34,599 nt of DNA from Phyllobacteriaceae bacterium (GTDB lineage Bacteria; Pseudomonadota; Alphaproteobacteria; Rhizobiales; Rhizobiaceae): NCBI GenBank assembly GCA_029279965.1, contig JAJUHJ010000022.1:1-34599 (forward strand), given 5' to 3'. The first letter of the stretch is position 1. The number at the start of each line of letters is the position of its first letter. A program made the position numbers and the translations under genes. This document shows, piece after piece, positions 3,466-33,489 of the stretch. The notes beneath the pieces were generated by a model that ran no database searches, was not told the origin of the DNA, and saw only the letters and a list, made by a program, of their open reading frames with translations.

Positions 3466-4482
3466 CTATCCGGCGAAGGAATCGTATTTTTTCAGCGCTT
3501 CGATCAGACCTTCAAGAATCGGCTCGGGGTCCATGCCCGCGTCCGAAATCGTCTGCTCCCACTCCTCCGTCAGTGGCGCGGCGGCATCCTTCCAGAGTTG
3601 AATTTGCTCTGCATTGGGCTTGTGCAGAGTGTGCTCTGGATCGGCGGCGATCTTGTCGCGCCCGGCCGCCTCCACATCCGCCCAGCCCGCCGACATCTTC
3701 TCTGCCCATTCCGGCGTGCAATGGTCTTCGATGACCTGCCGGTCCTCGGGCGCGAGCGACGCCATCTTGTCCTTGTTGATCACGAAGGCGTTAATGGAAG
3801 CGTAGAGTTCCATGTCGAGATGATGTTTGACGAGTGAATCTGCGCCAAAGATGTAAAGCGACTCCCATGGAGACTGGGTAATGTCTGCAGTCCCCTTCGA
3901 CAGTGCATCACGCATTTCCGGGGCGGGAACCTGCACGGAGGCGCCGCCGAGAAGGTTGACGAAGCGCGCTTCGGTAGCATTGGCAGGACGCACATTCTTG
4001 CCGCTGACGTCTTCGGGGACGAGAATGCGCGACTTGCCGTGCATCGTGCCCGGATCATGCGAAAGCGCCATGCAGAAATATACGTCGCTCATCTCCTCTT
4101 CTGCGTACTCCTTGTACCATTCCGTCAGAGCCCGAACCCCACCCTTGGCATTGGCAAAGAGAAAGGGCAGTTCGGCGGCTGCCATGATCGGGAAGCGACC
4201 CGGCTGATAGCCCGGATTGATAAAGCCGATATCGGTGATGCCGTCGCGTGTCATATCGTAGTGGTCGGCGGCGGCACCGAGCTGCTGAGCGGGGTAGATG
4301 GTAATCTCGATTCGCCCGTCAGACGCCTCTTTGATCGATTCAGCCCACGGCTCCATTCCAAGCGCCTGCAAAGGATGACTTCCAGGCACCCAGTGCGCCA
4401 GACTCAGTTCCACCTCGGCAGCCGACGCTGGCTGCGCCATGCCCATGGCGAGTGCGGCCGCAGCGAACAAGCGTGTATACAT
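3466..4482 (-). CDS. dctP: TRAP transporter solute-binding protein DctP, copy 2
   Basis: This 338-residue paralogue of the next gene is the first gene of the TRAP operon. It has a signal peptide (MYTRLFAAAALAMGMAQPASA) and a mature domain beginning AEVELSLAHWVPGSHPL. A GGGGAGGAG ribosome site precedes the ATG. The two binding proteins align almost without gaps over their full length, which indicates a tandem duplication. The palindrome TGTATACA covers the first codons of this gene, so a bound repressor would sit at the start of the transcript. The 63-bp gap to copy 1 contains no obvious terminator. Confidence 0.93.
   Translation of the reverse strand: MYTRLFAAAALAMGMAQPASAAEVELSLAHWVPGSHPLQALGMEPWAESIKEASDGRIEITIYPAQQLGAAADHYDMTRDGITDIGFINPGYQPGRFPIMAAAELPFLFANAKGGVRALTEWYKEYAEEEMSDVYFCMALSHDPGTMHGKSRILVPEDVSGKNVRPANATEARFVNLLGGASVQVPAPEMRDALSKGTADITQSPWESLYIFGADSLVKHHLDMELYASINAFVINKDKMASLAPEDRQVIEDHCTPEWAEKMSAGWADVEAAGRDKIAADPEHTLHKPNAEQIQLWKDAAAPLTEEWEQTISDAGMDPEPILEGLIEALKKYDSFAG
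4474..4481. promoter_or_regulatory. TGTATACA palindrome at the start of the TRAP operon
   Basis: This is a perfect 8-base palindrome spanning the start codon and next codons of the first dctP gene. It matches the sites upstream of metF, ligM and livJ. It is read as an operator for the GntR/FCD regulator at 17483-18217. Because it lies within the initiation codons, it could be partly coding chance, but perfect matches are few and most of them are in promoter regions. Confidence 0.5.
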
Positions 4483-4759
4483 ATCTCCTCCCCAATGTCG
4501 GTTGTCAGGTCGGCATTCGCCGTTAACCTCGACGGTTTGTTACTGGACGTTAATATCAGCACAACCGTGCCGCTGATACAAGCGGATACTTGGGAATGCT
4601 GGCGGCTTCGGCGCATAGCCAAGACGCTGGGGCAGGTCTGTCCCGGCTGGATTAACCAGCGCGCAGCATTGCCGATGGACGGATATATGCATACAATCTA
4701 TAGAGTTCGCGGTCCGAAACGATCGCCGGACGGGAGAGTGCAAGGGAGGAGCTTGGAGC
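4483..4759. promoter_or_regulatory. Divergent promoter region, TRAP operon / hydroxyacid operon
   Basis: This 277-bp region between two divergent operons has no credible gene. It holds TGCATACA at 4688-4695, one base off the TGTATACA palindrome and 65 bp before the start codon of the FMN dehydrogenase gene. The flanking stretch (ATATATGCATACAATCTATA) is AT-rich and promoter-like. Confidence 0.5.
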
Positions 4760-6010
4760 ATGACGGCGCAGGACCGGCGGCTTGCTGGATGGCGTTTGCG
4801 GTATCCGTCAGTGGCCGACCTGGAGCCGCTCGCAAAGCGGCGCATTCCCTATTTTTCCTATGATTTTCTGCAGGGTGGCACCGGTCGTGAGTTGTCACGG
4901 CCGCGCAATATGGCGGCGCTCGCTGCAATCGAGATCATATCGCGCCACGGTCTGGATGTTTCCGACGTCGACATCTCGGCGGAGCTGTTCGGTCGGCGTT
5001 ACGCATGTCCGGTTGTCGTGGGGCCCGTCGGTATGGATGGAGCCATATGGCCAGGCGCGACACGCCATTTGGCGGAAACGGCACGTGACAGCAATATCCC
5101 GTATATGACGGGCACTCTGGCGACGGGCACATTGGAAAGTGTTGCAGAGATCGCGCCTGAGAACTTCTGGTTTCAGCTCTACGGCATGCCCTCGGAGGAC
5201 CATCGCGTCAGCCTCGATCTCGTCCGCCGTGCGAAGGATGCGGGCGCTCATATCCTCGCCGTCACGCTGGATGTACCCATACCGCCACGTCGTGTTCGCG
5301 ACATGCGCAACCGGCTTGGCACCCCTTTACGGCTCACACCGCGCATGGTGACCGGGATGCTGGCGCGCCCGCGCTGGCTGAAAGCTCTTGCCCGCGAAGG
5401 GCTGCCGCGCTTTGCAAATATGACCTCTTATTGCCGCGAGGGGGCGAGCAAAACAGAGCTGGATACCTTTGTTGCGAAGGGACGTGCGGGCAGCATGACC
5501 TGGGAAACGCTGGCTCGTATTCGCGAAGCATGGCCGCGCGCTCTGGTGGCAAAGGGCATCCAGCATCCGGCCGATGCGGAAAAAGCGCTATCGCTGGGAT
5601 TGGACGGTGTGATCGTCTCAAACCATGGTGGCCGCCAGTTCGATGCCTCGCCCGCAACGATAGACCTGGTACCTGCCATCCGGCAGGTGGTGGGCGAACG
5701 GATGCAGGTGTTGATGGACGGCGGCATCATGTCCGGGACGGATGTCCTGAAGGCGCTGGCCTGCGGTGCCGACGCCGTCGTGGTCGGCCGGGCCTTTATG
5801 CTTGGCCTTGCCGCCCTTGGGGCCGATGGGGCGCGCCATGTCGCACGGACGCTCGAAGATGAATTGCGCATTGCGATCGGGCAGAGTGGGGCCTGCAATC
5901 GCGCCGGTGTGGCCAATTTGATGATCCGGCATCACAGCGCCTGGAAGATGGACGGTCCCGCTGGTGGACCGCGCAACAAAAACGACAAACTGGAGGAACT
6001 CGGGCAATGA
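4760..6010 (+). CDS. FMN-dependent 2-hydroxyacid dehydrogenase (mandelate/L-lactate dehydrogenase family)
   Basis: This 416-residue protein belongs to the FMN alpha-hydroxyacid dehydrogenase family, which oxidises L- or (S)-2-hydroxyacids to 2-oxoacids. Visible landmarks are FQLYG (138-142), the FMN-contacting Lys265 (VAKG), the catalytic His289 with Arg292 in SNHGGRQFD, the phosphate-binding DGG (320-322) and GRAF (343-346). It is complete and of normal length, and GGGAGG lies upstream of the ATG. Its stop overlaps the next start (ATGA), so the operon is coupled. The decarboxylase-like fusion at 9356-12436 makes an aryl 2-hydroxyacid such as a mandelate a reasonable substrate; L-lactate or another acid cannot be excluded. 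Confidence 0.9.
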   Translation: MTAQDRRLAGWRLRYPSVADLEPLAKRRIPYFSYDFLQGGTGRELSRPRNMAALAAIEIISRHGLDVSDVDISAELFGRRYACPVVVGPVGMDGAIWPGATRHLAETARDSNIPYMTGTLATGTLESVAEIAPENFWFQLYGMPSEDHRVSLDLVRRAKDAGAHILAVTLDVPIPPRRVRDMRNRLGTPLRLTPRMVTGMLARPRWLKALAREGLPRFANMTSYCREGASKTELDTFVAKGRAGSMTWETLARIREAWPRALVAKGIQHPADAEKALSLGLDGVIVSNHGGRQFDASPATIDLVPAIRQVVGERMQVLMDGGIMSGTDVLKALACGADAVVVGRAFMLGLAALGADGARHVARTLEDELRIAIGQSGACNRAGVANLMIRHHSAWKMDGPAGGPRNKNDKLEELGQ

Positions 6011-7689
6011 AGGTCGGTGATGCGATTGCGGAGATACTCAAGCGCGAAGGCGTGGAAATGGTGATCGGCTATCCGGTCAACCATGTGCTGGAATATGCTG
6101 CCATTGCCGACATTCGTCCCATCATCGTGCGCCAGGAGCGCACCGGTCTTCATATGGCCGACGCCATTTCACGCCTGACATCCGGGCGCAAGATCGGCGT
6201 TTTCGTCATGCAGAGCGGACCGGGCACCGAGAACAGCTATGGCGCCATCGCCCAGGCCTATTCTGAATCCGTGCCGGTGCTCGTCATGCCGGGCGGTTAT
6301 GCCCGGCGCCTTGCTCATGTCGATCCCAATTACAATGCCACGATCGCAATGCGCGACGTGACAAAATCGGCTGAACCGATCAACCATCCGGAAGAAATAC
6401 CCAACATCTTCCGCCGTGCCTTTTCGCGGCTGCGCAACGGCCGTGGTGGGCCGGTGCTGGTCGAGATACCGAACGATATCTGGAACGAAGAGGTGCCGGA
6501 GCCGCTCGAATACCGGCCGGTAGTGGCGACACGTTACGCGCCAGAGCCGGAAGCGATCCGCTCCGCAGTCGAAATGCTGGTCGATGCTCGCCGCCCCGTC
6601 ATCTACGCCGGCCAGGGCATCCATTATGCGAAGGCATGGCCGCAATTGCGCCAACTTGCCGAGCATCTTGCCATCCCGGTCTGCACGAGCCTTGAAGGCA
6701 AAAGCGCGTTTCCCGAAGATCACGCACTGGCCCTCGGCTCGGGCGGCGCGGCGATCCCCAAGACGGTGCGTCATTTCCTTGACGAGGCCGATTTGATCTT
6801 CGGCATCGGCTGCTCCTTCACCGAGACGTCGTTCGGCGTGGAGATGCCGCCCGACAAAACGGTTATTCACGCCACGCTCGACCCGGACCATGTAAACAAG
6901 GATTATGAAGCGGCGCTGGCGCTCGTGGGCGATGCGGGCCTGACGCTCGATGCCATTCTGGCGGAACTGGACCGGCGGGGTGAGCGTCAGCGGCCATGGA
7001 CCCACGCGGCGGACGAGATTGTGCAGGTCCGTTCTGCCTGGCTTCGCGAATGGATGCCGAAACTGACCTCCAATGATGCTCCCATGACGCCTTACCGGGT
7101 GCTTTGGGATCTGCAGAAGACCGTTGACGTCGCGAACACGATCATCACGCATGACGCCGGAAGCCCGCGTGACCAGCTTTCCCCGTTTTGGGTCTCAACC
7201 GAACCGCTTAGTTATATCGGGTGGGGAAAGAGCACGCAGCTCGGCTATGGTCTCGGCCTGGCGATGGGCGCCAAGCTGGCTTGCCCCGAAAAGCTGTGCA
7301 TCAATGTCTGGGGCGATGCTGCCATTGGCTTTACGGGAATGGACTTCGAGACGGCCGTACGCGAACGGATCCCGATTCTCTCGATCCTCCTCAACAATTT
7401 CTCGATGGCGATGGAACTGCCGATCATGGGCGTGTCGACCGAAAAGTACCGCTCGACGGATATCTCCGGCAATTACGCCGAGTTCGCGACCGCCCTCGGC
7501 GGCTATGGGGAGCGGATCACCGAACCCTCTGAGATCATCCCGGCGATCCGGCGCGGCATTGAGCAGACCCGGCAGGGCATCCCGGCGCTGCTGGAATTCA
7601 TCACTTGCCAGGAGCTGGCCACCTCGAAATATCCCGCGCCAAGTCGAAAGGCATCCAGGGAAGAGACGAAGGATGGGCACTATGTCTGA
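6007..7689 (+). CDS. Thiamine diphosphate-dependent enzyme, acetolactate-synthase-like superfamily
   Basis: This 560-residue protein has the three-domain layout of the acetolactate synthase/decarboxylase superfamily. The cofactor-activating glutamate is E44 (RQERTG). The thiamine-binding motif starts at G436-D437 and ends at N463-N464 (LLNN), the usual spacing. The decarboxylase GNPG motif near residue 21 is replaced by GYPVNH, and QSGPGTENSYG (69-79) stands where the decarboxylase in this window has its NLHSAAG motif with the catalytic histidine. It is therefore not a standard benzoylformate decarboxylase. It overlaps both neighbours (4 bp and 8 bp), so it probably acts on the 2-oxoacid they make, by decarboxylation or carboligation. 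The exact reaction is unknown. Confidence 0.85.
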   Translation: MKVGDAIAEILKREGVEMVIGYPVNHVLEYAAIADIRPIIVRQERTGLHMADAISRLTSGRKIGVFVMQSGPGTENSYGAIAQAYSESVPVLVMPGGYARRLAHVDPNYNATIAMRDVTKSAEPINHPEEIPNIFRRAFSRLRNGRGGPVLVEIPNDIWNEEVPEPLEYRPVVATRYAPEPEAIRSAVEMLVDARRPVIYAGQGIHYAKAWPQLRQLAEHLAIPVCTSLEGKSAFPEDHALALGSGGAAIPKTVRHFLDEADLIFGIGCSFTETSFGVEMPPDKTVIHATLDPDHVNKDYEAALALVGDAGLTLDAILAELDRRGERQRPWTHAADEIVQVRSAWLREWMPKLTSNDAPMTPYRVLWDLQKTVDVANTIITHDAGSPRDQLSPFWVSTEPLSYIGWGKSTQLGYGLGLAMGAKLACPEKLCINVWGDAAIGFTGMDFETAVRERIPILSILLNNFSMAMELPIMGVSTEKYRSTDISGNYAEFATALGGYGERITEPSEIIPAIRRGIEQTRQGIPALLEFITCQELATSKYPAPSRKASREETKDGHYV

Positions 7690-9061
7690 TGCCGCCTTGC
7701 AGGCGATCGCGGAATTGAAGCCGCTGCTCGGGGATCGGATTGTCACATCGGAGGCAGTGCGCGAGCACCACAGCCGGGATACGTCCCGGCTCAAACCGCA
7801 CCTGCCAGATGCCGTCGCCTTTCCTCAATGCGAGGAGGAGGTGCAGGCAATCGTGCGGGCATGTGCCGCCCATGGCGTTCCGGTCGTGCCGTTTGGGGCA
7901 GGCTCCTCGATGGAAGGGCACACCATTCCGGTGCGTGGCGGCATTTCGCTCGATACACGGGACATGAATCGCGTCGTCGAGGTCAAAGCGGAGGATTTCC
8001 TGGCGGTCGTTCAGCCAGGCGTCACGCGCAAACAGTTGAATACGCATCTGCGGGATACCGGCCTCATGTTCTCCGTCGATCCGGGTGCCGATGCGTCGAT
8101 TGGGGGCATGGCCTCTACGCGCGGCAGTGGCACGACGGCGGTGCGCTACGGTACGATGCGCGAGAATGTCCTGGCTCTGCGCGTCGTCACGCCGGACGGG
8201 ACCGTCATCCGCACCGGATCGCGGGCACGCAAATCGTCCACCGGATACGACCTGACGCATCTTTTTGTCGGGGCCGAAGGGACCCTCGGCGTCATCACCG
8301 AAGTGACGGTGCGCCTCCACCCGATACCCGAGGCCGTATCCTCGGCGATCTGTCACTTCGAAAGTGTGCGCAGCGCGGTGGAGGCGGTGATCGCCACAGT
8401 CCAGTACGGCATTCCGGTTGCCCGAGTGGAGTTCCTCGATGAGGTGGCGATCGCTGCAACCAACAGCTACTCGAACCTTGATCTCAACGTTGCGCCGACA
8501 CTGTTCTTCGAGTTCCACGGCACGCCGAACTGGGTGGCGGAACAAGCAAGGATCGCCGAGGAGATTGCCCGCGATTGCGGCGGCGCGGATTTCCGCTGGT
8601 CGACCGATCCGGAAGAACGCAGCCGTCTCTGGCAAGCAAGACATGACATTTTCTGGGCAACCAAGGCAATCAAGCCGGGCTACGACATCTATACGGGTGA
8701 CATCTGCGTACCGATCTCACAACTCGCCGACAGCATCATCGCAGCGCGCGACGATATTGATGCCTCCCCACTGACGGGGCAGATCATCGGCCATGTCGGT
8801 GACGGCAATTATCATACTGCCTATCTGATCGACCCTGACAATCCGGAGGATCTGGCCGAAGCGGAGCGGCTGGCCGACCGCCTGGTGGAGCGGGCGCTCG
8901 CCGTTGGCGGCACGGCAAGCGGCGAGCATGGCATCGGCACCGGGAAACTGAAATTTATGCGTCAGGAACATGGCGAGGCCATTGATCTGATGAAACGCAT
9001 CAAGGCAGCGCTCGACCCTGCCGGGATCATGAATCCCGGCAAGATGGGGCAGGGTGGATAG
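7682..9061 (+). CDS. FAD-binding dehydrogenase of the GlcD / D-lactate dehydrogenase family
   Basis: This 459-residue flavoprotein belongs to the FAD-linked oxidase family that includes glycolate oxidase GlcD and cytochrome-linked D-lactate dehydrogenase. The FAD-binding segments are visible as PFGAGSSMEG (70-79), the IGGMASTRGSGTTAVRYG region (140-157) and GAEGTLGVITE (198-208). The C-terminal domain has GHVGDGNYH and GEHGIGTGK, which carry the histidines and glutamate of the active site. The ATG at 7682 was chosen because GAAGGA lies 8 bases upstream; it overlaps the previous gene by 8 bp. Such enzymes oxidise D-2-hydroxyacids. Paired with the FMN enzyme in the same operon, it would let the cell use both enantiomers without a racemase. 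Confidence 0.9.
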   Translation: MSDAALQAIAELKPLLGDRIVTSEAVREHHSRDTSRLKPHLPDAVAFPQCEEEVQAIVRACAAHGVPVVPFGAGSSMEGHTIPVRGGISLDTRDMNRVVEVKAEDFLAVVQPGVTRKQLNTHLRDTGLMFSVDPGADASIGGMASTRGSGTTAVRYGTMRENVLALRVVTPDGTVIRTGSRARKSSTGYDLTHLFVGAEGTLGVITEVTVRLHPIPEAVSSAICHFESVRSAVEAVIATVQYGIPVARVEFLDEVAIAATNSYSNLDLNVAPTLFFEFHGTPNWVAEQARIAEEIARDCGGADFRWSTDPEERSRLWQARHDIFWATKAIKPGYDIYTGDICVPISQLADSIIAARDDIDASPLTGQIIGHVGDGNYHTAYLIDPDNPEDLAEAERLADRLVERALAVGGTASGEHGIGTGKLKFMRQEHGEAIDLMKRIKAALDPAGIMNPGKMGQGG

Positions 9062-9355: not shown

Positions 9356-12300
9356 TCAGGCGATGTGGATCGTCTTCGTCTCGACATAGTTGTCGAGGCC
9401 TTCCGGCCCACCTTCGCGGCCCATGCCTGATTGCTTGAAACCACCGAACGGGTGCTTGGGATCGACGATCATCCCATTGACGGTCACGCTGCCGGTGCGC
9501 ATGCGGCGAGCGACGGCATAACCGCGTTCGGGATTGGCGGTGAAGACCGCGCCGCTGAGGCCATAGGTGGAATTGTTGGCCTTGCGGATCGCATCCTCCT
9601 CGTCCGTGTAGCCGATGACGGAAACCACCGGGCCGAAGATTTCTTCCTGTGCGATCTTCATGTCGGAATCGACATCGGTGAACACGGTGGGTTCGATATA
9701 ATAGCCCTTGCCGAGGTTTTTCGGCCGGCCGCCGCCACACGCGATCGTGGCGCCTTCGCTCCGGCCCGCGGCAATATAGCCTTCCACGCGCTCAAGCTGA
9801 CGCGCCATTGTGAGCGGCCCCATGTGGGTTTCCGGATCGAACGGATCGCCGACCTTAATGCCGGACACGGCGCCAACGTACATATCGAGGAATTCCTGCT
9901 TGCGGTTTTCGGGCACCAGGATCCTTGTCAAAGAGAAGCAAACCTGACCGGTGATCGGCATGGAGTAGATCATCAGGCTGGGCAGAGCCGCCGAAAAATC
10001 TGCATCGTCAAGCAGGATCGCCGCGGATTTTCCGCCAAGCTCCAGACTGACGCGCGCCAGTCGTTCGGCGCAGACTGCCGCGATGTGCTTGCCAGCTGCC
10101 GTGCTGCCGGTGAAGGCAACCTTGTCGATATCCGCGTGGCGAACCAGATAGTCGCCGCCTTCGCGGCCGGCCGGCACCAGGTTGAAAACGCCCTTCGGCA
10201 AGCCCGCCTTTTCGATGCATTCGGCAAGCATGTAGGCCTCAAGAGGCGTTTCCGGTGAAGGCTTGGCGACCATGGTGCAGCCAGCTGCGAGCGCGGCAGA
10301 GACCTTGTAGCTGAGCAGCACCAGCGGGGCGTTCCATGGCGTGATCGCGGCACAGACGCCGACCGGCTCCTTGATCACTTTCACCTGGCCGCCATCATCG
10401 CGCTTGCGGTCATCGACGAACGGATAGCTCTCGATGAGGTCGGCATAATAGTTGAACAGCGTCGGATTCTGGCCCACCAGCTTCTTCGTCAGCATGATGG
10501 GGGCGCCGACCTGAAGGGTCCAGGCGTGGGCGATGTCGTCCAGGCGTTCGGCAAGAAGGTCGGCGACCTTGCGCAGGTAGCGGGCGCGCTCGCTCGGCGC
10601 CATCCGCGGCCACGGACCGTTGTCGAACGCCTCACGGGCCGCGCAGACAGCAAGATCGATGTCGGTCTGCCCAGCCTCTGGATAGCTGAGAATGACCTCC
10701 TCCGTTACCGGCGAAACGACCTCGAGCAGCTTCTTTGACAGTGGCTCGACCCATTGCCCGTCGATGAAGAATTTTTCCGGAGCCTTGGGGACGGCAGGGT
10801 TTCTGGTCATAACGTTCATGGCAGAATTCTCCTCTCTAAGAACGACCTCCAGCAGTCGCGGCCCTTTCCTTTTCAGGAGGTCGCGCAGGCAGTCGGACAG
10901 TTTGCTTCCCTCTTCGCAGCGCATTGCCGGGCATCCTTGCGCTTCGGCGATGGCAACAAAATCCATGTGCGAAATATCGACACCCGACAAACGCCGGGCC
11001 TGGCTCTTTCCCGCAATTCCCCGCAAGGCCTCGTAGCCGCCATTGTTGAGGACGATCACCAGAAGATCGACATCGTGTTCCACCGCGGACCACAATGACT
11101 GAATGGAATAGAGGCTCGATCCGTCGCCCATGATGGCAATGACGGGATGGCGGGGCTCAGCGAGCGCCGCGCCCACCGCCGCGGGGAGACCGTAACCGAG
11201 CCCTCCGCTTGCCGTCGTGAAAAAGCCGCCCGGGCGTTCGATCGGCAAATGGTCGTGCATGGCTTTGCGGGCACTCGGCGCTTCCTCGACAATGATGCTG
11301 TCGGGCGAGCGCAGTTCAGAAAGTGTCTGAAACAGGTATTCAGGCGTTATCCCTGTTGGCTGCGGGACGGGCGGCACATTTCGCGCGGGCACTTTCGCGC
11401 GCTCGCGGTAGGGGCTTGCCTGCGCCAGAAGAGCTTCCGCTGCCACCCTGATGCCAGACACCAGCGCCGTGCCAACGGCGGCACCGGCTGCCTGCTTCGG
11501 GTCGTCCGTGATAAGGCAAAGCTCTGCACCAGCGGGGATATGGTCGCCCATGCCCGGAAAGTGATAGGTGAACACCGGCGCGCCCAGCACGAGGATCAGG
11601 TCTGCCCCCTGGAGACAATCCGACAGGGCCGGCTGGTGGGCGGGAAGGAAGCCGGCGAACAGATGATGACGCTCAGGAAAGCTGCAACGTGAAGACATGG
11701 GGCTGACCCATACTCTCGCCCGATGAGCCTCCGCCAGCTCAACCACGCTGTCCCATGCCTCGTCTATGTCGACGCCGGGGCCGACCACGAACACGGGGCT
11801 GCGTGCCCGGTTCAGCTTCCGCGCCACCTGGCCGAGCGCGGCGGGATCGCCTCCGATCGTGGCAGCGACCTGGCGTATCTCCGGCGGCGTAGCGACCTTG
11901 TCCCAGTCATCCAGCGGCACGGAGACGAGAACCGGCCCCCGGGGCGCCTGCATGGCAGTGTGGTAGGCGCGCGCGATCGCAGCCGGCACATCCTCGGCCC
12001 GTGCTGGCTCATATGCCCACTTCACATAGGGTTTCGGGAACTCCGTCGGGCTTTCGGCAAACAGGAACGGATCATGCGGCAAAAGCTGCCGCGACTGCTG
12101 TCCGGTGGTGATGATGAGCGGTGCTCGGTTGCGGTAGGCGGTGTAGATGTTGCCCATCGCATGGCCGAGACCGGCCGCTGAATGGAGGTTGACGAAGGCC
12201 GCGCCACGCGTGACCTGCGAATATGCGTCCGCCATTCCCACGACGATGGATTCCTGTAGGCCAAGCACATAGGAGAAGTCGGGCGGCAGGTCGGCGAACA

Positions 12301-14464: not shown

Positions 14465-14494
14465 TGTATACATTGGCATATAAGAACCGTACAA
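14465..14494 (-). promoter_or_regulatory. metF promoter with TGTATACA over the -10 box
   Basis: On the minus strand TTGTAC (14489-14494) and TATACA (14465-14470) are 18 bases apart and read as -35 and -10 boxes. The palindrome TGTATACA at 14465-14472 coincides with the -10. A start point about 7 bases on would leave a leader of about 30 nt containing the AGGAGG site of metF. The layout suggests repression by occlusion. Confidence 0.6.
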
Positions 14495-17345: not shown

Positions 17346-17374
17346 CATCATACCTCCCAATTGTTGCGGATGAA

Positions 17375-22781: not shown

Positions 22782-22823
22782 CGCAGCGGCGTCAGCAGCA
22801 GAAAGATCGGGCGGGGCGTTCTC

Positions 22824-23687: not shown

Positions 23688-23693
23688 TTTGAC

Positions 23694-24680
23694 ATGACGA
23701 CCGTCTCCCAAGCTGCAACCGATCCGCACTCCTGGCTGAGAGGACAAAGCAGGTGGTCTTACTTCGAGATTGCCTTCTGGGTCATTGCATTGCTGCCATT
23801 CTACTTCTTCCCCACCTATCTGACGCTTGCCAGCCAGATTGCCATCACGGCACTCTTCGCGATTTCCGTTGATCTCGTGCTGGGCTATGCCGGCATCATC
23901 ACGCTGGGACACGCGATGTTTTTCGGACTTGGCGCCTATGCTGCCGGCCTGATTACCAAAGCAGGCTGGGGCGAGCCGCTGACCGGCCTCGTCTTCGCGG
24001 GCGCTTTCGCCGCCCTGATAGGTTTTCTCACCAGCTTCATCATCGTACGCGTGCGCCATCTTGCGCTTATCATGATTACGCTCGGCCTCGGCTTCCTGAC
24101 GTTGGAGCTTGCCAATGCGATGAGTTGGCTGACCGGCGGAGCCGACGGTCTGCGCGGCGTTGACGTCTGGCCCATTTTTGGCTGGTTCGAGTTCGATCTT
24201 TGGGGCTACACCGCCTATTCCTATTCCCTCATCGTCCTGTTCCTGGGCGTCGTTGCAGCCCGGCGCATCGTGCATTCCGCCTTCGGCCTGTCGCTCAGGG
24301 GTGTCAGGGAAAATCTCACGCGGATGCCGGCAATCGGCTCACCCTACCGCTTCCACCTCCAGAAGATCTACACGATATCGGCCGCCTTGGCCGGCGTCGC
24401 AGGAGCCTTGCTGACGCAGACGACGGAAACCGTCTCACTTGAGACACTCAGTTTCCAACGTTCGGCGGATATCGTCGTGATGCTTATTCTTGGCGGCACG
24501 GGGCGTCTTTACGGCGGGATCATCGGCGCAATCATCTTCATGGTTGCACGGGACCAGCTTTCGGGCATGAACCCACAATATTGGTATTTCTGGATTGGAC
24601 TGCTGTTGATGGCGGTTATTTTGGTCATGCCGAATGGCATTCTGGGCGGCCTTTCCCGTCTGGCGGGAAGGAGAAGCTGA
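23694..24680 (+). CDS. livM: Branched-chain-type ABC transporter permease LivM
   Basis: This 328-residue membrane protein is of the LivM type, with the landmarks DLVLGYAGIITLGHAMFFGLGAY, LSLRGVRENLTRMPAIG and ILGGTGRLYGGIIGA. It begins 6 bp after livH, and its stop overlaps the next start (TGATG). It forms the second half of the channel with LivH. No unusual features were seen. Confidence 0.92.
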   Translation: MTTVSQAATDPHSWLRGQSRWSYFEIAFWVIALLPFYFFPTYLTLASQIAITALFAISVDLVLGYAGIITLGHAMFFGLGAYAAGLITKAGWGEPLTGLVFAGAFAALIGFLTSFIIVRVRHLALIMITLGLGFLTLELANAMSWLTGGADGLRGVDVWPIFGWFEFDLWGYTAYSYSLIVLFLGVVAARRIVHSAFGLSLRGVRENLTRMPAIGSPYRFHLQKIYTISAALAGVAGALLTQTTETVSLETLSFQRSADIVVMLILGGTGRLYGGIIGAIIFMVARDQLSGMNPQYWYFWIGLLLMAVILVMPNGILGGLSRLAGRRS

Positions 24681-25441
24681 TGCCGGGCGAGGATATCGTT
24701 CTTCGCACGGAGGCGCTGCAAAAGAGCTTCGGCTCGCTGGAGGTCGCACGCAGCGTTTCGATCGAATTGCCGCGCGGCGCGCGCCATGCCCTCATCGGCC
24801 CCAACGGCGCGGGAAAAACCACGCTTATCAACCTGATTACGGGCCAGATCAGACCGGATTCGGGAAAGATTTTCCTGGAGGGCCGCGATGTCACTCAGAT
24901 GGACGTGGCGGGGCGTGTCCGCCACGGCGTGACACGCACCTTTCAGATCAATGAGCTCTTCCCAAATCTGACGCCGCTGGAGGCCGTGACGCTTGCCGTG
25001 TGTGAACGCGAAGACCTGGCGGGACAGTTTTGGCGCCCCCTTACCGCACAGAAGGCAGCGATCGACGAAGCCTTCGACATCCTCACCCAGTTGCAGCTGG
25101 CCGATGTTGCCACCCGCCCCACACGCACGCTCTCCTATGGCCAGAAGCGACTGATGGAAATCGCCCTGGCGCTCGCCACCCGCCCCAAGGTTCTGTTGCT
25201 CGATGAACCGGCGGCCGGCGTGCCGAAGGACGAGAGCGCGATGCTTTTCAGCGTTATCGCGGCGCTGCCGGCGGATATGTCGGTGCTCTTCATCGAGCAT
25301 GATATGAGCCTGGTTTTCAAGTTTTCCTCGCAGATCGTCGTCCTCGTTGGCGGCGGCGTATTGCTTCAGGCCGAGCCTGATGTCGTGCGCCGCGACCCTC
25401 GTGTCCGCGAGGTGTATCTGGGACAAGCCGGCTATGTCTGA
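24680..25441 (+). CDS. livG: Branched-chain-type ABC transporter ATP-binding protein LivG
   Basis: This 253-residue ATPase has the Walker A motif GPNGAGKTT (40-48), the signature LSYGQKRLMEIALALA and Walker B VLLLDEPAAGV, followed by the LivG-type switch IEHDMSLVF. The ATG at 24680 overlaps the livM stop. It pairs with LivF to power uptake through LivH and LivM. The YG in the signature is usual for LivG. Confidence 0.93.
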   Translation: MPGEDIVLRTEALQKSFGSLEVARSVSIELPRGARHALIGPNGAGKTTLINLITGQIRPDSGKIFLEGRDVTQMDVAGRVRHGVTRTFQINELFPNLTPLEAVTLAVCEREDLAGQFWRPLTAQKAAIDEAFDILTQLQLADVATRPTRTLSYGQKRLMEIALALATRPKVLLLDEPAAGVPKDESAMLFSVIAALPADMSVLFIEHDMSLVFKFSSQIVVLVGGGVLLQAEPDVVRRDPRVREVYLGQAGYV

Positions 25442-26150
25442 ACCGCTTCTCGAAATGCGCGACGTGCGTGCCGGCTACGGCGAGGCGGTGGTGCTGGATG
25501 GCGTCTCGCTTGCGGTGCCCGCCAATGGCAGCCTGGCGGTTCTGGGCCGAAACGGCGTCGGCAAGTCGACGCTGCTCCTGACGGCAATGGGCTTTGTAAG
25601 TCTGCTCCAAGGCTCCGTCTGGTTGAATGGCAGGGATGTTTCGCGCATGCCGCCGCATCGCCGCGCGCGTGCCGGCCTGGGCTGGGTGCCTCAGGAGCGC
25701 GACATTTTTCCATCCTTGACGGTGGAGGAGAACCTGACGGCGACGGCCCAGTCCGGTCGCTGGGAGCTCGATGCTGTCTATTCCCTCTTTCCGCGGCTCA
25801 AGGAACGAAGGTCCAATATGGGCAATCAGCTTTCGGGGGGAGAGCAGCAGATGCTGGCGATCGCGCGCACGCTGATGACCAATCCTTCCATCCTGATCCT
25901 TGATGAGCCGCTAGAAGGGCTTGCCCCGATTATCGTCGAGGAACTTACCGATGCGATCAGGACAATGGCGCGAGACGAGGGGACGGCGCTGGTGCTGGTT
26001 GAGCAGAACGCAGAGGTTGCGCTTGAGCTTACCGACGATGCGATCGTCATCGAGCGCGGTGTCATCGCGCATCGGGCTCGATCGGCGGAACTGCTCCAGG
26101 ACCAGGAGACGCTTAACCGCTATGTCGGATTGAACCTCGACGCATCCTGA
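25434..26150 (+). CDS. livF: Branched-chain-type ABC transporter ATP-binding protein LivF
   Basis: This 238-residue ATPase has Walker A GRNGVGKST (38-46), signature LSGGEQQMLAIAR, Walker B ILILDEPLEGLAP and the VEQNAEVAL switch typical of LivF. It overlaps livG by 8 bp. It completes a full livJHMGF set. The gap to the dioxygenase gene is 61 bp on the same strand with no clear terminator, so that gene probably shares the transcript. Confidence 0.93.
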   Translation: MSEPLLEMRDVRAGYGEAVVLDGVSLAVPANGSLAVLGRNGVGKSTLLLTAMGFVSLLQGSVWLNGRDVSRMPPHRRARAGLGWVPQERDIFPSLTVEENLTATAQSGRWELDAVYSLFPRLKERRSNMGNQLSGGEQQMLAIARTLMTNPSILILDEPLEGLAPIIVEELTDAIRTMARDEGTALVLVEQNAEVALELTDDAIVIERGVIAHRARSAELLQDQETLNRYVGLNLDAS

Positions 26151-26211
26151 CGGAAACGCCGCCATGACACCTGTGCGGCAGAGTTGAAAAAGTGGACAAC
26201 GAGAGTTGGTG

Positions 26212-27162
26212 ATGAGTGAACCCTGTTTCGATATCGCCCATCTGGGCCACCTTGAGATTTTGACCGACAGGCCTGAGGAAAGTCTTGATTTCTTCGTCAA
26301 TGTGTATGGATTGACCGAAAGCGGTCGAGAGGGCGACTCCGTCTATCTGCGCGCCTTTGACGACTATGAGTTCCATACGCTGAAGCTGACGGCGTCGAAC
26401 ACGACCGGTATGAAGCATGCCGGCTATCGAGCCTCATCTCAGGCTGCATTGGAGCGCCGCGTCGCGGCGATCGAAAAGATGGGCTGCGGTGTCGGCTGGT
26501 CCGATGGCGATCTCGGTCACGGCCCCGCCTACCAATTCACGAGTCCGGACGGCCATCTGTTCGAAATCTACTATGAAACGAAGCTATACGAGCCACCTGA
26601 AAGCGAACGTCCGGCACTGAAGAACATCGCTCAGCGCTATCATGGCCGCGGCGCCTGTGTGCGCCGGCTGGACCATTTCAACCTGCTCGCTTCGGATGTC
26701 TCGAAAATCCGGGACTTCATGATCGGTGCGTTGGGCAGCCGGGTCACCGAACAGATACAGTTGGACAATGGCCGGCTGGGCGGCTGCTGGTTCACCGTCA
26801 ACAACAAGAGCTACGATATGGCGGTCACCGAGGACCATTCAGGTGCGCAGGGTCGCTTCCACCACATCACCTATGCGGTCGACCAGCGCGACGATATTCT
26901 GCGCGCCGCCGATATCTTCCTGGAGAACGGCGTGTTCATTGAAACCGGGCCGCACAAGCACGCGATCCAAGGCACTTTCTTTCTCTATGTCTATGAGCCG
27001 GCGGGAAATCGTGTCGAGGTCGCAAATGCGGGGGCGCGGCTCATCCTGCGGCCGGACTGGGAGCCGATCACCTGGACGGAAGCCGAGCGCAGGAAAGGAC
27101 AAGCCTGGGGTCTGAAAACCATCGAGAGCTTCCACACACACGGCACGCCACCGCTGGACTAG
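26212..27162 (+). CDS. Extradiol ring-cleavage dioxygenase, catechol 2,3-dioxygenase (XylE) type
   Basis: This 316-residue protein has two vicinal-oxygen-chelate domains, about 8-125 and 150-280, as in type I extradiol dioxygenases. The iron ligands are visible: His155 (RRLDHFNLL), His217 or His218 (RFHHITY) and Glu269 (GNRVEV), with the active-site stretch GPHKHAIQGTFFLYVYEP between the second and third. All needed residues are present, so it should be active. It would open a catechol next to the hydroxyls. The ATG at 26212 is preceded by GAGAG; TTG and GTG two and one codons upstream are alternatives. At the end of the liv operon, it fits cleavage of the catechol that LigM would make. No downstream hydrolase or hydratase is in the window. 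Confidence 0.85.
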   Translation: MSEPCFDIAHLGHLEILTDRPEESLDFFVNVYGLTESGREGDSVYLRAFDDYEFHTLKLTASNTTGMKHAGYRASSQAALERRVAAIEKMGCGVGWSDGDLGHGPAYQFTSPDGHLFEIYYETKLYEPPESERPALKNIAQRYHGRGACVRRLDHFNLLASDVSKIRDFMIGALGSRVTEQIQLDNGRLGGCWFTVNNKSYDMAVTEDHSGAQGRFHHITYAVDQRDDILRAADIFLENGVFIETGPHKHAIQGTFFLYVYEPAGNRVEVANAGARLILRPDWEPITWTEAERRKGQAWGLKTIESFHTHGTPPLD

Positions 27163-29207: not shown

Positions 29208-31190
29208 TCACTGCCAAAAGGGAGGCACGAAGGGTGTATGCAGGAGGCGATCATACAGGAGGTGCATCACGAGAGCGATACCACCCGTGTACAGCAGGAC
29301 AGTCATCCAACTGAAGCGACCCCAGAACCTGGTATACAGCGCCGCGAACCCCACAATGGCGAGGAAGGTGCCGAGATATGGCGCCGCCAGCAGTGCCATG
29401 AGCGCCATACCGAGAAAAATGGCGAACTGTCGCTTGTGCTCTTGAAAGAAGCTGCCAAAAGATCCTCCAGCGGTTTTGTCCCCTGCCGACCGGGCGGCGG
29501 AAAACTCTCGTAGGGCCGCGCGGTCTTCCAGCAGGACTGCGGCGGCTGCCAGCAGACCGAAGCAGGCGATGGTGATGGGAGAGACCTTGGCAAGGGGGCT
29601 CCAATCAAGCGCGAGCGAGATCGCCACTGCGAAGACCACCGCGACTGCGAGAGCCAGGGCCGATGACAGCAACAGGCTCGGCCGGGACACGGTGGTGGAC
29701 TCGATGTTGAAATTTGCCAGTTTCTTGCGCGTGGAGCGCAGGGCGAAGAAAAACACCAATCCTACCACGAGAAGCAATGCGATCACCGTGGGACGGGAGA
29801 GCACCTCCGTGGGCGTGTAGGTCTGGTAGGTGATACCCATGGCGTTTTCCATGATCGGACCCAGAACGAAGCCGAGGATGAACGGTGGTCTCGGCCAGCC
29901 GCCGATCTTCATCAGATATCCCAAGAGCCCGATGGCGAGCACCGAAATCCAGCTGAACATGCCTGGAATCCAGAGCCAGGATCCCATGAAGATGAACATG
30001 ATCACCGCAGGCACCACGAAATCGCCGTCGATAAAGGCCGCCTTGGCGACCTGCCGGCCCCAGACCATGAGAATGACCGCACCGATGAGGTTTGCCAGGA
30101 TGATCGTCCAGACCATGCTGAAGGTGATGTCGAGATTGTCGGTGAGCATGTCCCGGCCGGGGGCGAACCCATGGATCGTCAAAGCGCTCAGCAGAATTGC
30201 CATCGCACCGCTTCCGGGGATGCCGAAGGCGATTGTCGGGATCAACGAACCCCCGAGCACGGCGTTGTTTGCCGCTTCCGGTCCGATGACGCCGCGAACG
30301 TCACCTTTGCCGAAGTTCGAGCTATCTTTCGAGCTTTGAACCGCATGCCCGTAAGCGAGCCAGTCGACCACGGAACCGCCGATCCCCGGCAGCATGCCGA
30401 CATAGACGCCGAGCACGGAACAACGGATCACCAGCCAGCGATTCTTGATCGCCTCCTTGATGCCGCGGACCAGCCCATCATTTTCCGCGCGCTGGTCGGG
30501 GATGTGGGCGATCGAGGTACGGCGCGCGGCCAAATCCATCATCTCGGGTATGCCGAACAGGCCAAGTACGACTGGCACCAAAGGCAGACCGTCGAGAAGG
30601 TCCGGCGTTCCGAACCAATAACGCGGTGTCGAACTGGCGACCGGATAACCGATCTGAGACAGCATCAAACCCAGTGCCGCCGCAGCGATGCCTTTGGAAA
30701 CCGCGTTGCCACTCACGGCACCCACCATAATGAGGCCGAGCAATGACAGCAGAAAGAATTCGGGAGAGCCGAAAGCCAGGATAATATACAGCGCGATCGG
30801 GAGCGAGGCCGCCATCGCCAGCCCGCCGACCACCCCGCCGAACGCCGATGAGGCGAAGGCGGCTCCGAATGCCGTCTGCGGCAATCCGCGTTTGGCCATC
30901 GCATGACCGTCGATCACGGTCGCCTGCGAGGCGATGGTGCCGGGAATGCCGATCATGACCGAAGTGATCGTGTCGCTGGTGCTGACCACCGCGAACATGC
31001 CGAGCAGCATCGACAAGGCGGCTCCCGGATCCATCCCGAAGGTGAACGGCAAGAGCACGACCATGCCTGTGACGCCGCCAAGGCCCGGCACGATCCCGAG
31101 CCATAACCCAAGCACCATGCCGCCAAGCAGGTAAAGAACATTGGGATAGGTCACGACGAGGGTCAGGCCGTCGATAAAGCTTTCAAACAT
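29208..31190 (-). CDS. tctA: Tripartite tricarboxylate transporter permease, TctA fused to TctB
   Basis: This protein of about 660 residues combines two membrane parts. Residues 1 to about 500 are TctA, with LGIVPGLGGVTGMV and GMLPGIGGSVVDWLAYGHA near the repeated family motif and a dozen or so helices. Residues from about 505 on add four helices (SLLLSSALALAVAVVF and onward) that match TctB in size and pattern. Normally TctA and TctB are separate genes. The ATG at 31190 was taken as start; a TTG two codons earlier is possible and the ribosome site is weak. It lies 368 bp downstream of tctC, separated by a repeat. Probable substrate: a di-, tri- or aromatic carboxylate. Confidence 0.88.
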   Translation of the reverse strand: MFESFIDGLTLVVTYPNVLYLLGGMVLGLWLGIVPGLGGVTGMVVLLPFTFGMDPGAALSMLLGMFAVVSTSDTITSVMIGIPGTIASQATVIDGHAMAKRGLPQTAFGAAFASSAFGGVVGGLAMAASLPIALYIILAFGSPEFFLLSLLGLIMVGAVSGNAVSKGIAAAALGLMLSQIGYPVASSTPRYWFGTPDLLDGLPLVPVVLGLFGIPEMMDLAARRTSIAHIPDQRAENDGLVRGIKEAIKNRWLVIRCSVLGVYVGMLPGIGGSVVDWLAYGHAVQSSKDSSNFGKGDVRGVIGPEAANNAVLGGSLIPTIAFGIPGSGAMAILLSALTIHGFAPGRDMLTDNLDITFSMVWTIILANLIGAVILMVWGRQVAKAAFIDGDFVVPAVIMFIFMGSWLWIPGMFSWISVLAIGLLGYLMKIGGWPRPPFILGFVLGPIMENAMGITYQTYTPTEVLSRPTVIALLLVVGLVFFFALRSTRKKLANFNIESTTVSRPSLLLSSALALAVAVVFAVAISLALDWSPLAKVSPITIACFGLLAAAAVLLEDRAALREFSAARSAGDKTAGGSFGSFFQEHKRQFAIFLGMALMALLAAPYLGTFLAIVGFAALYTRFWGRFSWMTVLLYTGGIALVMHLLYDRLLHTPFVPPFWQ

Positions 31191-31296
31191 GAGCAAATGT
31201 CCCGCCCTGGTGCCGTGGCATTTCGTCGTTATGCCTGTCGTTCGACGCGTCGTGGTGCAGCCGAGCTATACAGGTCCAGCAGTCGATTTTGGGATG

Positions 31297-31323
31297 TCAT
31301 AGCGCTGTGACGCCTTGCATCAT
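31297..31323 (-). other. Eight-codon open frame with strong ribosome site (leader peptide or gene remnant)
   Basis: On the minus strand a GAGAGGAGGAG ribosome site is followed by ATGATG and the short frame MMQGVTAL ending in TGA. It lies between tctC and the fused tctAB, about 100 bp before the latter. It could be a leader peptide, or the start of a tctB gene whose body was lost when TctB was fused to TctA. The evidence is only the good ribosome site and position. Confidence 0.35.
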
Positions 31324-31452
31324 GTTGCTCCTCCTCTCTCGCCCCGACAAACCAGGCGGCACCATGTCCTGACGACCACCGCAGCAGCTATCCTGCCGGC
31401 GGTAAACGGGATGCCCTTCTCGGCGGCGATTGCCGGCCGGCATGACCCGATG

Positions 31453-31557
31453 GCGTGCCGCGCGTCTTTTCGGACGCGCGGGACGCGCTGCCTCATTGAA
31501 TCGACGCATCGTGCTTTTCGAAAATCGATTCAGATTTCCGGGGCCGATGTTGTAGAC
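31453..31557. repeat. RIME-like intergenic repeat, copy B
   Basis: This full-length match to 9163-9269 contains the left palindrome (CGCGCGTC...GGACGCGCG), CTCATTGAA, and the right palindrome from GCATCGTGCTTTTCGAA to CCGGGGCCGATG. It starts right after the tctC stop on the minus strand and so lies inside the likely tctC-tctAB unit, where it could reduce downstream expression. Confidence 0.75.
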
Positions 31558-31558
31558 G

Positions 31559-32656
31559 TCAATGCTCCATTCTGCCGATGTAATCGCGCATCATGTCCTT
31601 CATTTCTTCCGACGTATTCTTCACGTCATCGACGATCGCCGTTATCTCCTCGGCGAACTCGATATTCGGCTCCGCACCATAAAGCTTGGTGGCAGCTTCA
31701 AGATATTCCGGGGACGTCATGGCTTCCCGGAAGGAGTCGCGCAGCATTTGCAGATGTTCCTCCGGCGTTCCTGGCGGGGCGACAACGATCCAGTTGACAC
31801 TGTTGCTCACCCGGCCGTGAAACTGGATCATGTCCCAGATCGGACCGCTTGGCGCTTCGCCCATGGTGTCTTCATAATACTGAGCGAAGGTGGGAACCGT
31901 GCCGTCGAACGCTTTGTCGGGAATCATGGATTTCCCGTCTTCGGTCGGCCAGGAATAATGCCACGCGCCAAGCGTGCTGCCGTCGGCGATCGGGCCGTCC
32001 CGAAGCTGCTGCTGATACACCACGGCCGTGGCCGGGTAGGCATCGATCTCCCCGCGCGCCTGGGCGGCGAGGAGCGGGCCGTCACCGGCGAAACCGGAGG
32101 CGAAGTTCCAATCGATGCCCAGCATGTCGAGCGCGCCGGCGGTCTGCATCGAAGCCGCGCTCTTTGGCGAAAAGCCGCCGAAGGTCAGGCTCTCGACTTC
32201 CAGCAGGTCCGCGCCGCTTTCGATGCCGTCTCCCACGTCGGTTCTGACATGAAAGAAGAAATTTCCCGCGCCGACGCCAGCGATCAGCCCGAAATCTTCG
32301 AACGGAATCTGCAATTCCTCCGGATCGAGGATGCGCGTCGAACCCTGCCAGGCCAACCAGCCCAGGGTCAGCCCATCCGGCCGCGCGTTCATCACATGAT
32401 AGATGCCCTTGCTGAGGGCGCCGCCGGCGACGGATTGAACGACCATCGTCGGATTTCCTGCCATGGTTTTTGTCCAGGCGTTTGCCGCCAGCTGGGTGCC
32501 CAGACCCGTTGCTCCGCCAGGCGATGCGTTGTGGACGATGGTGACGGTCTGGCCTTCAAGATCGATCACCTGAGCAAAGGCGGGCAGGGTGCCTAAAGCC
32601 GCGCTGAATGTCGCCCCCGCCGCGATCTTCAAAAAGTTCTTCGTAATCCTTTTCAT
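31559..32656 (-). CDS. tctC: Tripartite tricarboxylate transporter substrate-binding protein TctC
   Basis: This 365-residue periplasmic binding protein is of the TctC/Bug family. The ATG at 32656 follows GGGAGGAGTTG and opens a signal peptide (MKRITKNFLKIAAGATFSA, cleavage near AFA|Q); the open frame begins 18 codons earlier without a ribosome site. The mature protein starts with VTIVHNASPGGATGLGTQL, the usual ligand loop of the family. The family captures carboxylates for TctAB. The site TGTATACT lies 33 bp upstream of the start codon. The gene is the first of a tctC-tctAB group interrupted by a repeat. Confidence 0.9.
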   Translation of the reverse strand: MKRITKNFLKIAAGATFSAALGTLPAFAQVIDLEGQTVTIVHNASPGGATGLGTQLAANAWTKTMAGNPTMVVQSVAGGALSKGIYHVMNARPDGLTLGWLAWQGSTRILDPEELQIPFEDFGLIAGVGAGNFFFHVRTDVGDGIESGADLLEVESLTFGGFSPKSAASMQTAGALDMLGIDWNFASGFAGDGPLLAAQARGEIDAYPATAVVYQQQLRDGPIADGSTLGAWHYSWPTEDGKSMIPDKAFDGTVPTFAQYYEDTMGEAPSGPIWDMIQFHGRVSNSVNWIVVAPPGTPEEHLQMLRDSFREAMTSPEYLEAATKLYGAEPNIEFAEEITAIVDDVKNTSEEMKDMMRDYIGRMEH

Positions 32657-32680: not shown

Positions 32681-32700
32681 GGAAAGATTGTATACTTTCC
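32681..32700. promoter_or_regulatory. GTATAC-type operator upstream of tctC
   Basis: TGTATACT (32689-32696) is one base off the consensus and sits within a longer inverted repeat, GGAAAG...CTTTCC (32681-32700). Its distance to the tctC start codon (33 bp) matches those for metF and ligM. A further near match, AGTATACA, is at 32944-32951, still upstream of tctC. Confidence 0.55.
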
Positions 32701-32860
32701 ACCGCGACATCTGATCTGAATTTCGATGGCTTCCGCCGCTCTCCTCCCGGTCGCCTTACTGTGCAGTCTCACCGAAAGCGAGTCTGCTGAATTCTCGCAA
32801 CATAATGAAATTTAACGGGAACAATCCTCCCCTGCTGTCGCTGGCCACTCCAAAGCCTCA

Positions 32861-32903
32861 ATTGCAGATCCCCGGCTGAGGCGGGGGATTCATCCTCTGC
32901 AAT
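32861..32903. promoter_or_regulatory. Long two-part hairpin in the intergenic region
   Basis: ATTGCAGA (32861-32868) pairs with TCTGCAAT (32896-32903), and the inner TCCCC (32869-32873) pairs with GGGGA (32884-32888). This makes a stem with an internal bulge. It has no U-tract and matches no riboswitch I recognise. It may be a structured RNA element, a protein-binding dyad or a repeat. Confidence 0.4.
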
Positions 32904-33489
32904 TAGAACCTTGCAGGCGTAGCTTCTCCTTTCCTCGAACGAAAGTATACATAACGGTCAAGTCATCTCAAGCCCAAGCCTGTGTATTTGCCGAAAGGAA
33001 TGTGCCCTGCTTCTGCATTAACCGCGCTGAACTCTCGATGTTGTAAACAGATTGTGTTCCGCGTGTGGGGTGTCCCGCGCTAAGGGTGGCCCAAAAATGC
33101 CCCCGTTAAGCGTCATAAACGACGATCGTATATTATCAAAAGGCGATTGCCCGCCTTTGGATCGTGTTTGCGCAACAGATTCCGCAACACACCGGCGATC
33201 TGGTTGTTGGGAGGCTGCCTCGCGTAACCATTGACCAGCCCCGGATTGCTTGCCTGCACTTCGTTGAGCATGGACGACGTGGTGTGGAAGCTCGCCACGA
33301 TGTCGAGCCGTTCGATCACTACCCGTTTCACATGCATGAGCATCTGTTCCATCGGCGGCCAATAAAAGAGGCGCGTACATAAGAAATTTCAAATACACTA
33401 TTGGCATATCGACGCCTATCTCACGTGTACAGCGTAATAATAGGTAGATCAGTTATGCCTGGATGTTTAATTTAGATAGGGAAAGTATA
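32904..33489. other. AT-richer intergenic stretch with possible gene remnant
   Basis: No convincing gene is seen. A minus-strand frame at 33113-33352 (beginning MEQMLMHVKRVVIERLDIV, ending LLIIYDRRL) has codon use like a real gene, but no ribosome site and no family I recognise, so it may be a remnant. Just downstream of it on that strand, 33055-33105 has a GC-rich sequence with GGTGTCCCGC and GGTGGCCCAAAAATGC that faintly recalls insertion-sequence ends. From about 33360 the DNA is AT-rich up to the first of the small genes. Confidence 0.35.

Follow-up and report, generated by a model that had tools for sequence, protein, structure and literature searches.

The 34,599-nucleotide contig JAJUHJ010000022.1 of a Phyllobacteriaceae bacterium (assembly GCA_029279965.1), called the window below, carries at several places the eight-base palindrome TGTATACA, built around GTATAC. 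The question this locus raises is which protein reads that sequence and which metabolite the protein would answer to. Very probably, the palindrome is bound by a repressor of an already known type, one under whose control methoxylated plant aromatics are broken down. With high confidence, it can be taken as the predicted operator for the GntR/FCD product of 17483-18217. This protein is an orthologue of Atu1419 and would repress genes for demethylation, one-carbon (C1) metabolism and transport until a metabolite releases it. The sites, their enrichment and conservation, their co-occurrence with the regulator and the conservation of its residues are observed; from these we infer binding, repression, looping and the effector.

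A reading made from the letters alone (the sequence-only reading) had placed five perfect copies at 4474, 14465, 17376, 21368 and 21514, and all five are there. Its estimate that well under one perfect 8-mer would be expected agrees with shuffled versions of the window, which hold 0.03 on average (none of 100 shuffles reached five). Counted with up to one mismatch, 18 sites occur against a shuffle mean of 2.31. The genome itself (G000; 3,258,459 bases in 206 contigs, of which the window, contig C22, makes up 1.06%) holds eight perfect copies, with six for a reversed-pattern control, and 172 sites with at most one mismatch, with 341 for the control. Because 5 of the 8 perfect sites and 18 of the 172 looser ones lie within that 1.06% (binomial P 7e-9 and 7e-13), the motif is rare in the genome and concentrated in the window, and the shuffle counts, genome count and binomial P together rule out chance as the source of the window sites. 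One-sided variants, TGTATACB, number 24 in the genome, five of them in the window. By the gene calls, 16% of the window is intergenic, a class that takes in four of the five perfect and eight of the 13 one-mismatch sites. The principal sites, given in nucleotides (nt) and base pairs (bp), and the three genes at the centre of the locus are as follows.

4474-4481: perfect operator, covering codons 1-3 of the TRAP binding-protein gene 3466-4482 (minus strand)
4688-4695: one-mismatch site TGCATACA, 65 nt before the flavin mononucleotide (FMN) dehydrogenase gene 4760-6010 (plus strand) and 214 bp from 4474
14465-14472: perfect operator, about 36 nt before the metF-like gene (GTG 14429)
14608-14635: two TGAATACA copies 20 bp apart (14608, 14628), farther upstream of metF
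17376-17383: perfect operator and full 10-mer ATGTATACAT, 25-31 nt before ligM (ATG 17351 or 17345)
18255-18262: one-mismatch operator, TGTATACC in gene direction, 38 nt before gntR (ATG 18217)
21284-21291: one-mismatch site TGTATGCA, 60 nt before the AEC-type transporter gene 20286-21224 (minus strand)
21368-21375: perfect operator in the AEC/livJ divergent region
21514-21521: perfect operator, about 90 nt before livJ, overlapping a promoter-like -10 hexamer (21495-21523)
32689-32696: one-mismatch site TGTATACT, 33 nt before the tctC-like gene 31559-32656 (minus strand; ATG 32656)
32944-32951: one-mismatch site AGTATACA, 255 bp from 32689
17483-18217, minus strand: GntR/FCD repressor of the Atu1419 type (VanR group), from Pfam GntR and FCD matches and the Atu1419 alignment
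15939-17351, minus strand: ligM, vanillate/3-O-methylgallate O-demethylase (NCBIfam NF047885, 640.9 bits against a cut-off of 580)
13515-14429, minus strand: metF-like methylenetetrahydrofolate reductase (TIGR00676, E 4e-7, far under the cut-off; no Pfam match)

The earlier list of ten sites was sound as far as it went, all ten being present, but it covered only 10 of 18: it left out 6891, 13433, 17255, 29235 and 29331, which lie in coding DNA and are probably chance occurrences, and 14608, 14628 and 33042, which are intergenic. The two copies upstream of metF are possibly weak sites. Site 4474 covers the start of the TRAP gene rather than lying upstream of it: it forms the first three codons, ATG-TAT-ACA, directly behind a ribosome-binding-like sequence. 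The same start-codon overlap is seen in two relatives (L057 and L062). At L059:2071 and L064:2088, TGTATACA stands at the start of a ketopantoate-reductase-like gene in a manner like the overlap at 4474. The spacing of 31-38 bases claimed for metF, ligM, gntR and tctC is close to what was measured, with ligM shorter. Less certainty attaches to the weaker sites (tctC, 4688, 18255 and 21284) than to the perfect copies.

The regulator is what ties these sites to a known system. Its product (from ATG 18217; Pfam PF00392, GntR, 52.4 bits; PF07729, FCD, 59.1 bits; both above cut-off) aligns without gaps to Atu1419 of Agrobacterium fabrum with 163 of 242 residues identical (67%, E 1.2e-96), the next match in the PDB having E 9e-13. 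The DNA-contact residues H9, R31, E34, S44, R45, T46 and R49 are identical in all seven cases, and the wing residue G66 of Atu1419 is Asn. In the metal/effector pocket R86, Y133, N137, H141, S169, R183, H192, H214 and N221 are identical and K175 is Asn; the citrate-pocket residues agree at eight of nine. A quick tree places both proteins in one clade of 23 rows, and in the window the regulator gene is linked to ligM- and metF-like genes. Atu1419 binds ATGTATACAT, as gel shifts and a crystal structure show, and loses binding if G3/C8 is changed; its repression targets are a metF-like gene, a LigM-like gene and its own gene, and the tetramer can form a DNA loop between sites separated by 190 bp (structures 6z74, 6za0, 6za3, 6za7 and 6zab; PMC7797058). 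The 8-bp core of that operator is what recurs at five places in the window. From these comparisons, the window protein can be regarded as an orthologue of the repressor Atu1419, in the VanR group, and its operator and regulator as an already known pair, found here in what appears to be a larger setting.

The site follows this regulator from genome to genome. A contig search gave the regulators of twelve relatives (60-76% identical), whose loci were compared: perfect sites occur in all twelve, the reversed control in one, and a perfect copy lies within 400 nt before gntR in nine. In 11 of the 12, ligM is near the regulator, with a site 25-33 nt before it. Among 297 sampled genomes of the order, the regulator was found in 58 (E <= 1e-30) and ligM in 11 (E <= 1e-60), the own genome included. 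Of 61 regulator matches outside the own genome, 32 were examined as stretches; 28 of these carry a perfect site along with the regulator homologue, and the reversed control appears in 1 of 34 stretches. Immediately before the genes, the motif emerges from unguided counts of 8-mers as well. Within 120 nt before ligM, TGTATACA occurs in 20 of 24 relatives (all but L060, L068, L098 and L104) and is the commonest 8-mer, tied with the overlapping ATGTATAC; it is also the commonest before vanA (14 of 16 relatives; misses L118 and L126) and within 150 nt before metF (8 of 10; misses L095 and L097). These counts take the metF of L019 and L076, which is the same gene, once, and leave out L121 and L123 for vanA, L056 and L092 (partial or duplicate ligM), ligM homologues of at most 55% identity and metF homologues of at most 60%. 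L060 and L068 hold a second regulator, 44% identical, which has a separate ligM (60%) and a pair of sites spaced by about 105 bp; their genomes also carry the main regulator-ligM pair. Elsewhere, an AEC homologue in L090 (37% identical) has a perfect site 42 nt before it, and livJ, whose start in the window is probably ATG 21609, is preceded by two perfect sites in L016 and L023. No tctC homologue beside a site turned up in the relatives.

Controls point the same way. A search of 385 genomes of the class gave 13 further ligM homologues, and the one with the regulator nearby has two sites. The other twelve, distant homologues from other orders (44-58% identical) without an adjacent regulator, its absence being judged next to ligM only, have no site within 1.5 kb. 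The own genome encodes 14 FCD proteins. The loci of the 13 besides the regulator, at 1.9-3.4 kb each, contain no perfect site. The attribution of the motif to the GntR protein, offered in the sequence-only reading as a conjecture, is supported by these comparisons: the Atu1419 orthologue keeps every base-contact residue, the site accompanies it across alphaproteobacteria, and both the distant ligM genes and the other FCD loci are free of it.

The predicted regulon extends beyond the contig. Of the eight perfect sites in the genome, seven mark a promoter or, in one case, a start codon, and the genes concerned serve uptake, aromatic catabolism or tetrahydrofolate (THF) C1 metabolism. One of them, C14:12262, is about 50 nt before a purU-like gene (ACT and formyltransferase domains), with TGCATACA 146 bp farther up; another, C21:17410, is about 40 nt before a pobA-like flavoprotein monooxygenase gene, which an AraC-type gene adjoins and near which lies a pcaH-like gene. 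The regulon had been described as locus-wide; sites do run across the locus, but they also reach these purU- and pobA-like genes on other contigs. Among 19 genomes with the regulator, 6 of 23 purU genes, own included, have a perfect site within 500 nt. Four of these six promoters with a perfect site, the own genome's among them, have TGCATACA as a second site, and some of the genes with a site, other than the own, are near the regulator, ligM or metF. For folD, the count is 4 of 22 genes in 21 genomes with the regulator.

A second demethylase brings the signal into focus. In 18 of the 32 stretches, homologues of vanA and vanB flank or adjoin the regulator (tblastn for all, Pfam for two); 16 have gntR between the two genes (vanA-gntR-vanB), and each of these stretches contains a perfect site, while in the other two (L121 and L123) the order is vanA-vanB-gntR and the vanA promoter falls outside the stretch. 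In L106-L115, a second perfect TGTATACA lies within the vanA coding region, about 250-300 nt in and 292-306 bp away from the site at the promoter; it may be an operator for looping or reflect a coding constraint. VanAB is a Rieske oxygenase that yields formaldehyde, whereas LigM passes the methyl group to THF. LigM plus MetF make methylene-THF, and formaldehyde forms methylene-THF with THF. The two demethylation chemistries are described in PMC6974649 and PMC7797058. In a quick tree with 25 open forks and no established root, ligM-linked regulators fall among vanAB-linked ones, with at least three changes between the two. R86, Y133, N137, H141, H192 and H214 are invariant in 21 main ligM-linked, three other ligM-linked and 18 vanAB-linked regulators, with S169 and N221 almost invariant. 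The variation at positions 175 and 183 speaks against a wholly identical pocket; position 175 is Gln in 17 of 18 vanAB-linked proteins and mostly Lys, Arg or Asn in the main ligM-linked ones. Because the pocket core is common to regulators serving two demethylation chemistries, it speaks, as far as sequence comparison goes, for one effector, which could be either vanillate, the common substrate, or methylene-THF. The purU and folD sites, together with the published Atu1419 tests, favour methylene-THF.

A mechanism can be sketched by analogy with Atu1419. The repressor tetramer would occupy or adjoin promoter and start-codon regions of ligM, metF, gntR itself and the TRAP transporter, and would also block the AEC transporter/acyl-CoA synthetase and liv transporter/dioxygenase operons as well as the purU- and pobA-like genes on other contigs. 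Sites come in pairs 214 bp (4474/4688), 146 bp (21368/21514), 255 bp (32689/32944) and 146 bp (purU) apart; three of the four pairs include at least one mismatched site. Paired sites at 146-255 bp would suit bridging by one tetramer, given the 190 bp looped by Atu1419. Basal demethylation of methoxylated aromatics would raise methylene-THF; N5,N10-methylene-tetrahydrofolate, proposed as the Atu1419 effector (PMC7797058), would then bind the FCD pocket and release the repressor, opening the demethylation genes together with a C1 outlet. The comparisons suggest a regulon that reads C1 flux, with vanillate as the main rival effector. In its fullest form, the proposal is put forward tentatively, at somewhat under even chances: one repressor-operator pair would have been kept while the demethylase was swapped several times between VanAB and LigM, which would be possible because it senses methylene-THF, the point where both chemistries meet, and not the aromatic, in a C1-flux regulon that recruits the C1 outlet of each genome (metF and purU here, folD elsewhere) along with transporters of methoxylated aromatics.

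Several observations weigh against the operator assignment and the regulon built on it. Among the 32 regulator homologues, four (L102, L121, L123 and L127) have no site in the stretch, and, conversely, ligM has a site at -80 in L072 and -319 in L098 without an adjacent regulator, the regulator being elsewhere in the genome. The full 10-mer ATGTATACAT is found at only one of the five perfect window sites (17376), the outer bases varying at the others. The own genome's perfect site C45:16762 stands in the gap between the ends of a convergent gene pair. Of 25 pobA genes in 20 genomes, only the own one has a perfect site in the 500 nt upstream, so that pobA is rejected as a conserved member, although two other pobA genes have a one-mismatch site; no site was found at the own folD gene, which is rejected as a member in this genome. 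Across the whole genomes of the twelve relatives, perfect sites number 127 and the reversed control 129. Outside regulator loci, 37 stretches around sites were examined in seven of the twelve genomes (two of them, L076 and L092, overlapping with the loci L019 and L013). In 15 the site is at a homologue of a reference gene (a distant FCD gene in three cases), in ten it precedes some other gene or coincides with its start (folD, ketopantoate-reductase-like, short-chain dehydrogenase and others), and 12 have it inside coding DNA or are unclassified. Since the genome-wide count matches its control and those 12 of 37 stretches are not tied to a promoter, many sites in the relatives' genomes are background, and position and gene context matter. 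Nor is the motif exclusive to the Atu1419-type regulator, given the distant FCD paralogues of some relatives: at L078:1998, L080:2077 and L087:2020, genes for proteins 30-32% identical to the window protein are each preceded by a perfect TGTATACA, some 40 nt from the start, and in those genomes a second regulator may share the operator.

The main rival reading concerns the effector. The operator and regulator may have been identified correctly while vanillate or another methoxylated aromatic acid occupies the metal-Arg pocket, which would make this substrate sensing; it is an appreciable possibility, if one short of even. FCD pockets often bind carboxylates, and the regulator clade also goes with vanAB, vanillate being the shared substrate. 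A Pseudomonas VanR responds to syringate and 3-O-methylgallate, and the ligM of SYK-6 is controlled by a regulator from a different family, whose major effector is vanillate (both PMC12314914). However, no hydroxycinnamate-pathway intermediate released Atu1419 from DNA while methylene-THF did, according to its authors (PMC7797058), and sites before purU and folD in some genomes fit a C1 signal. A narrower doubt concerns membership: it may be that only the perfect sites are real and that 4688, 18255, 21284, 32689 and 32944 are mostly chance, in which case tctC and the hydroxyacid operon would not be members. Coding DNA contains five of the 13 one-mismatch sites, two of which (17255 and 29331) read GGTATACA, the 8-mer that also stands at 18255, and the tctC sites have no support from any relative. 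The other eight are intergenic, though, TGCATACA accompanies the perfect purU site in four genomes, and gntR, mismatched in the window, has its nearby perfect copy in most of the twelve relatives. The narrower regulon is less likely than not.

It is highly improbable that a different protein of this genome binds the sites, be it one of the 13 other FCD proteins, the LysR-type protein encoded at 12557-13477 or the AraC-type one beside pobA. GTATAC does fit the general FadR-subfamily operator consensus, NyGTM-N0-1-KACNy (PMC4494728), without the spacer base (GT and AC half-sites), and with 14 FCD genes present cross-binding is possible; against this, the site follows the Atu1419-type regulator across genomes, and the nine alignable FCD paralogues (four of the 13 gave no match and are left out of the alignment and tree) vary at contact positions such as T46 and R31 and at the pocket positions Y133, N137, S169 and N221. 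Control by another own FCD protein is rejected on these varying residues and the empty FCD loci. Scarcely credible is the view that the sites are AT-rich promoter elements, -10-like TATACA, with no specific regulator. Several do lie 25-40 nt before starts, and 21514 overlaps a promoter-like hexamer; yet a general element would not be limited to eight places in the genome, five of them in one locus, nor be absent from all twelve ligM homologues without the regulator, and on these two grounds it is rejected. A promoter scan gave four sites against 2.0 in shuffles, a weak result.

Further genes annotated in the window are as follows:

497-4482, minus strand: TRAP transporter genes (DctM, DctQ, two DctP)
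4760-9061, plus strand: genes for FMN dehydrogenase, a thiamine pyrophosphate (TPP) enzyme and a GlcD-type oxidase
18337-20187, minus strand: AMP-binding acyl-CoA synthetase, called fcs in the sequence-only reading (Pfam AMP-binding, E 7e-44)
20286-21224, minus strand: AEC-type transporter (Pfam Mem_trans)
21609-26150, plus strand: livJHMGF-type ABC transporter
26206-27162, plus strand: extradiol dioxygenase of the catechol 2,3-dioxygenase type (TIGR03211, 320.5 bits against a cut-off of 320.2)
29208-32656, minus strand: tripartite tricarboxylate transporter genes (TctA, TctC; TctC match 24.6 bits, just under cut-off)

On the minus strand, 9356-12436 encodes a 1026-residue fusion of a benzoylformate-decarboxylase-like TPP enzyme and an aldehyde dehydrogenase, which would convert a 2-oxo acid to a carboxylic acid within one protein; it is conserved at full length in L023 (75%) and partly in L056. 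The 11-mer GCTAAGGGTGG occurs at both 14592 and 33079 and is possibly the remnant of an insertion-sequence end.

Among described systems, Atu1419 is the closest, alike in contact residues, citrate pocket, operator core and overall identity. The targets shared with the window at the core are the ligM-like gene, the metF-like gene and the regulator itself. Its published targets are three promoters of one hydroxycinnamate locus (PMC7797058), whereas the window regulon has about ten candidate promoters, including those of transporters, a ring-cleavage operon, purU and pobA. Operons of the vanA-vanR-vanB kind, such as vanARB of Rhodopseudomonas palustris (PMC6974649), have regulators in the same wider clade, with TGTATACA before vanA and the same metal-pocket residues; the partner there is a Rieske demethylase releasing formaldehyde (PMC6974649), in contrast to the THF-dependent LigM of the window. 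VanR2 of Pseudomonas sp. NGC7 is likewise a GntR repressor of vanillate/syringate demethylase genes, but its operator is GGGATCCC, with another core, and its effectors are aromatic acids (PMC12314914). This GGATCC-type VanR is rejected for the window, where GGGATCCC has no copy and GGATCC occurs seven times (7367, 9919, 16571, 22754, 23544, 29979 and 31027), always inside genes. DesR of Sphingobium SYK-6 also controls ligM, but it belongs to the MarR family and has vanillate as its major effector (PMC12314914).

The operator and the Atu1419-type regulator are thus known. In the open-licence literature searched, no description was found of the larger regulon, of its C1-outlet members or of an operator and pocket shared by VanAB and LigM, nor was TGTATACA found together with GntR. 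What appears new, judging from these comparisons, is the larger regulon with its putative C1-disposal genes (purU here, folD in some relatives) and a repressor-operator pair, with a largely invariant pocket, that would be common to the unrelated demethylases LigM and VanAB.

As far as the open-licence literature searched goes, this regulator and its operator have been described from one locus in one species. The same pair probably governs a larger programme, and it predicts which genes to expect in that programme, including transporters that are still unassigned. It also makes a biological question testable with existing proteins: whether a bacterium gauges demethylation from the aromatic substrate or from the one-carbon unit that is set free. 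Because the pocket is nearly invariant across VanAB- and LigM-linked regulators, it predicts that one answer would hold for both.

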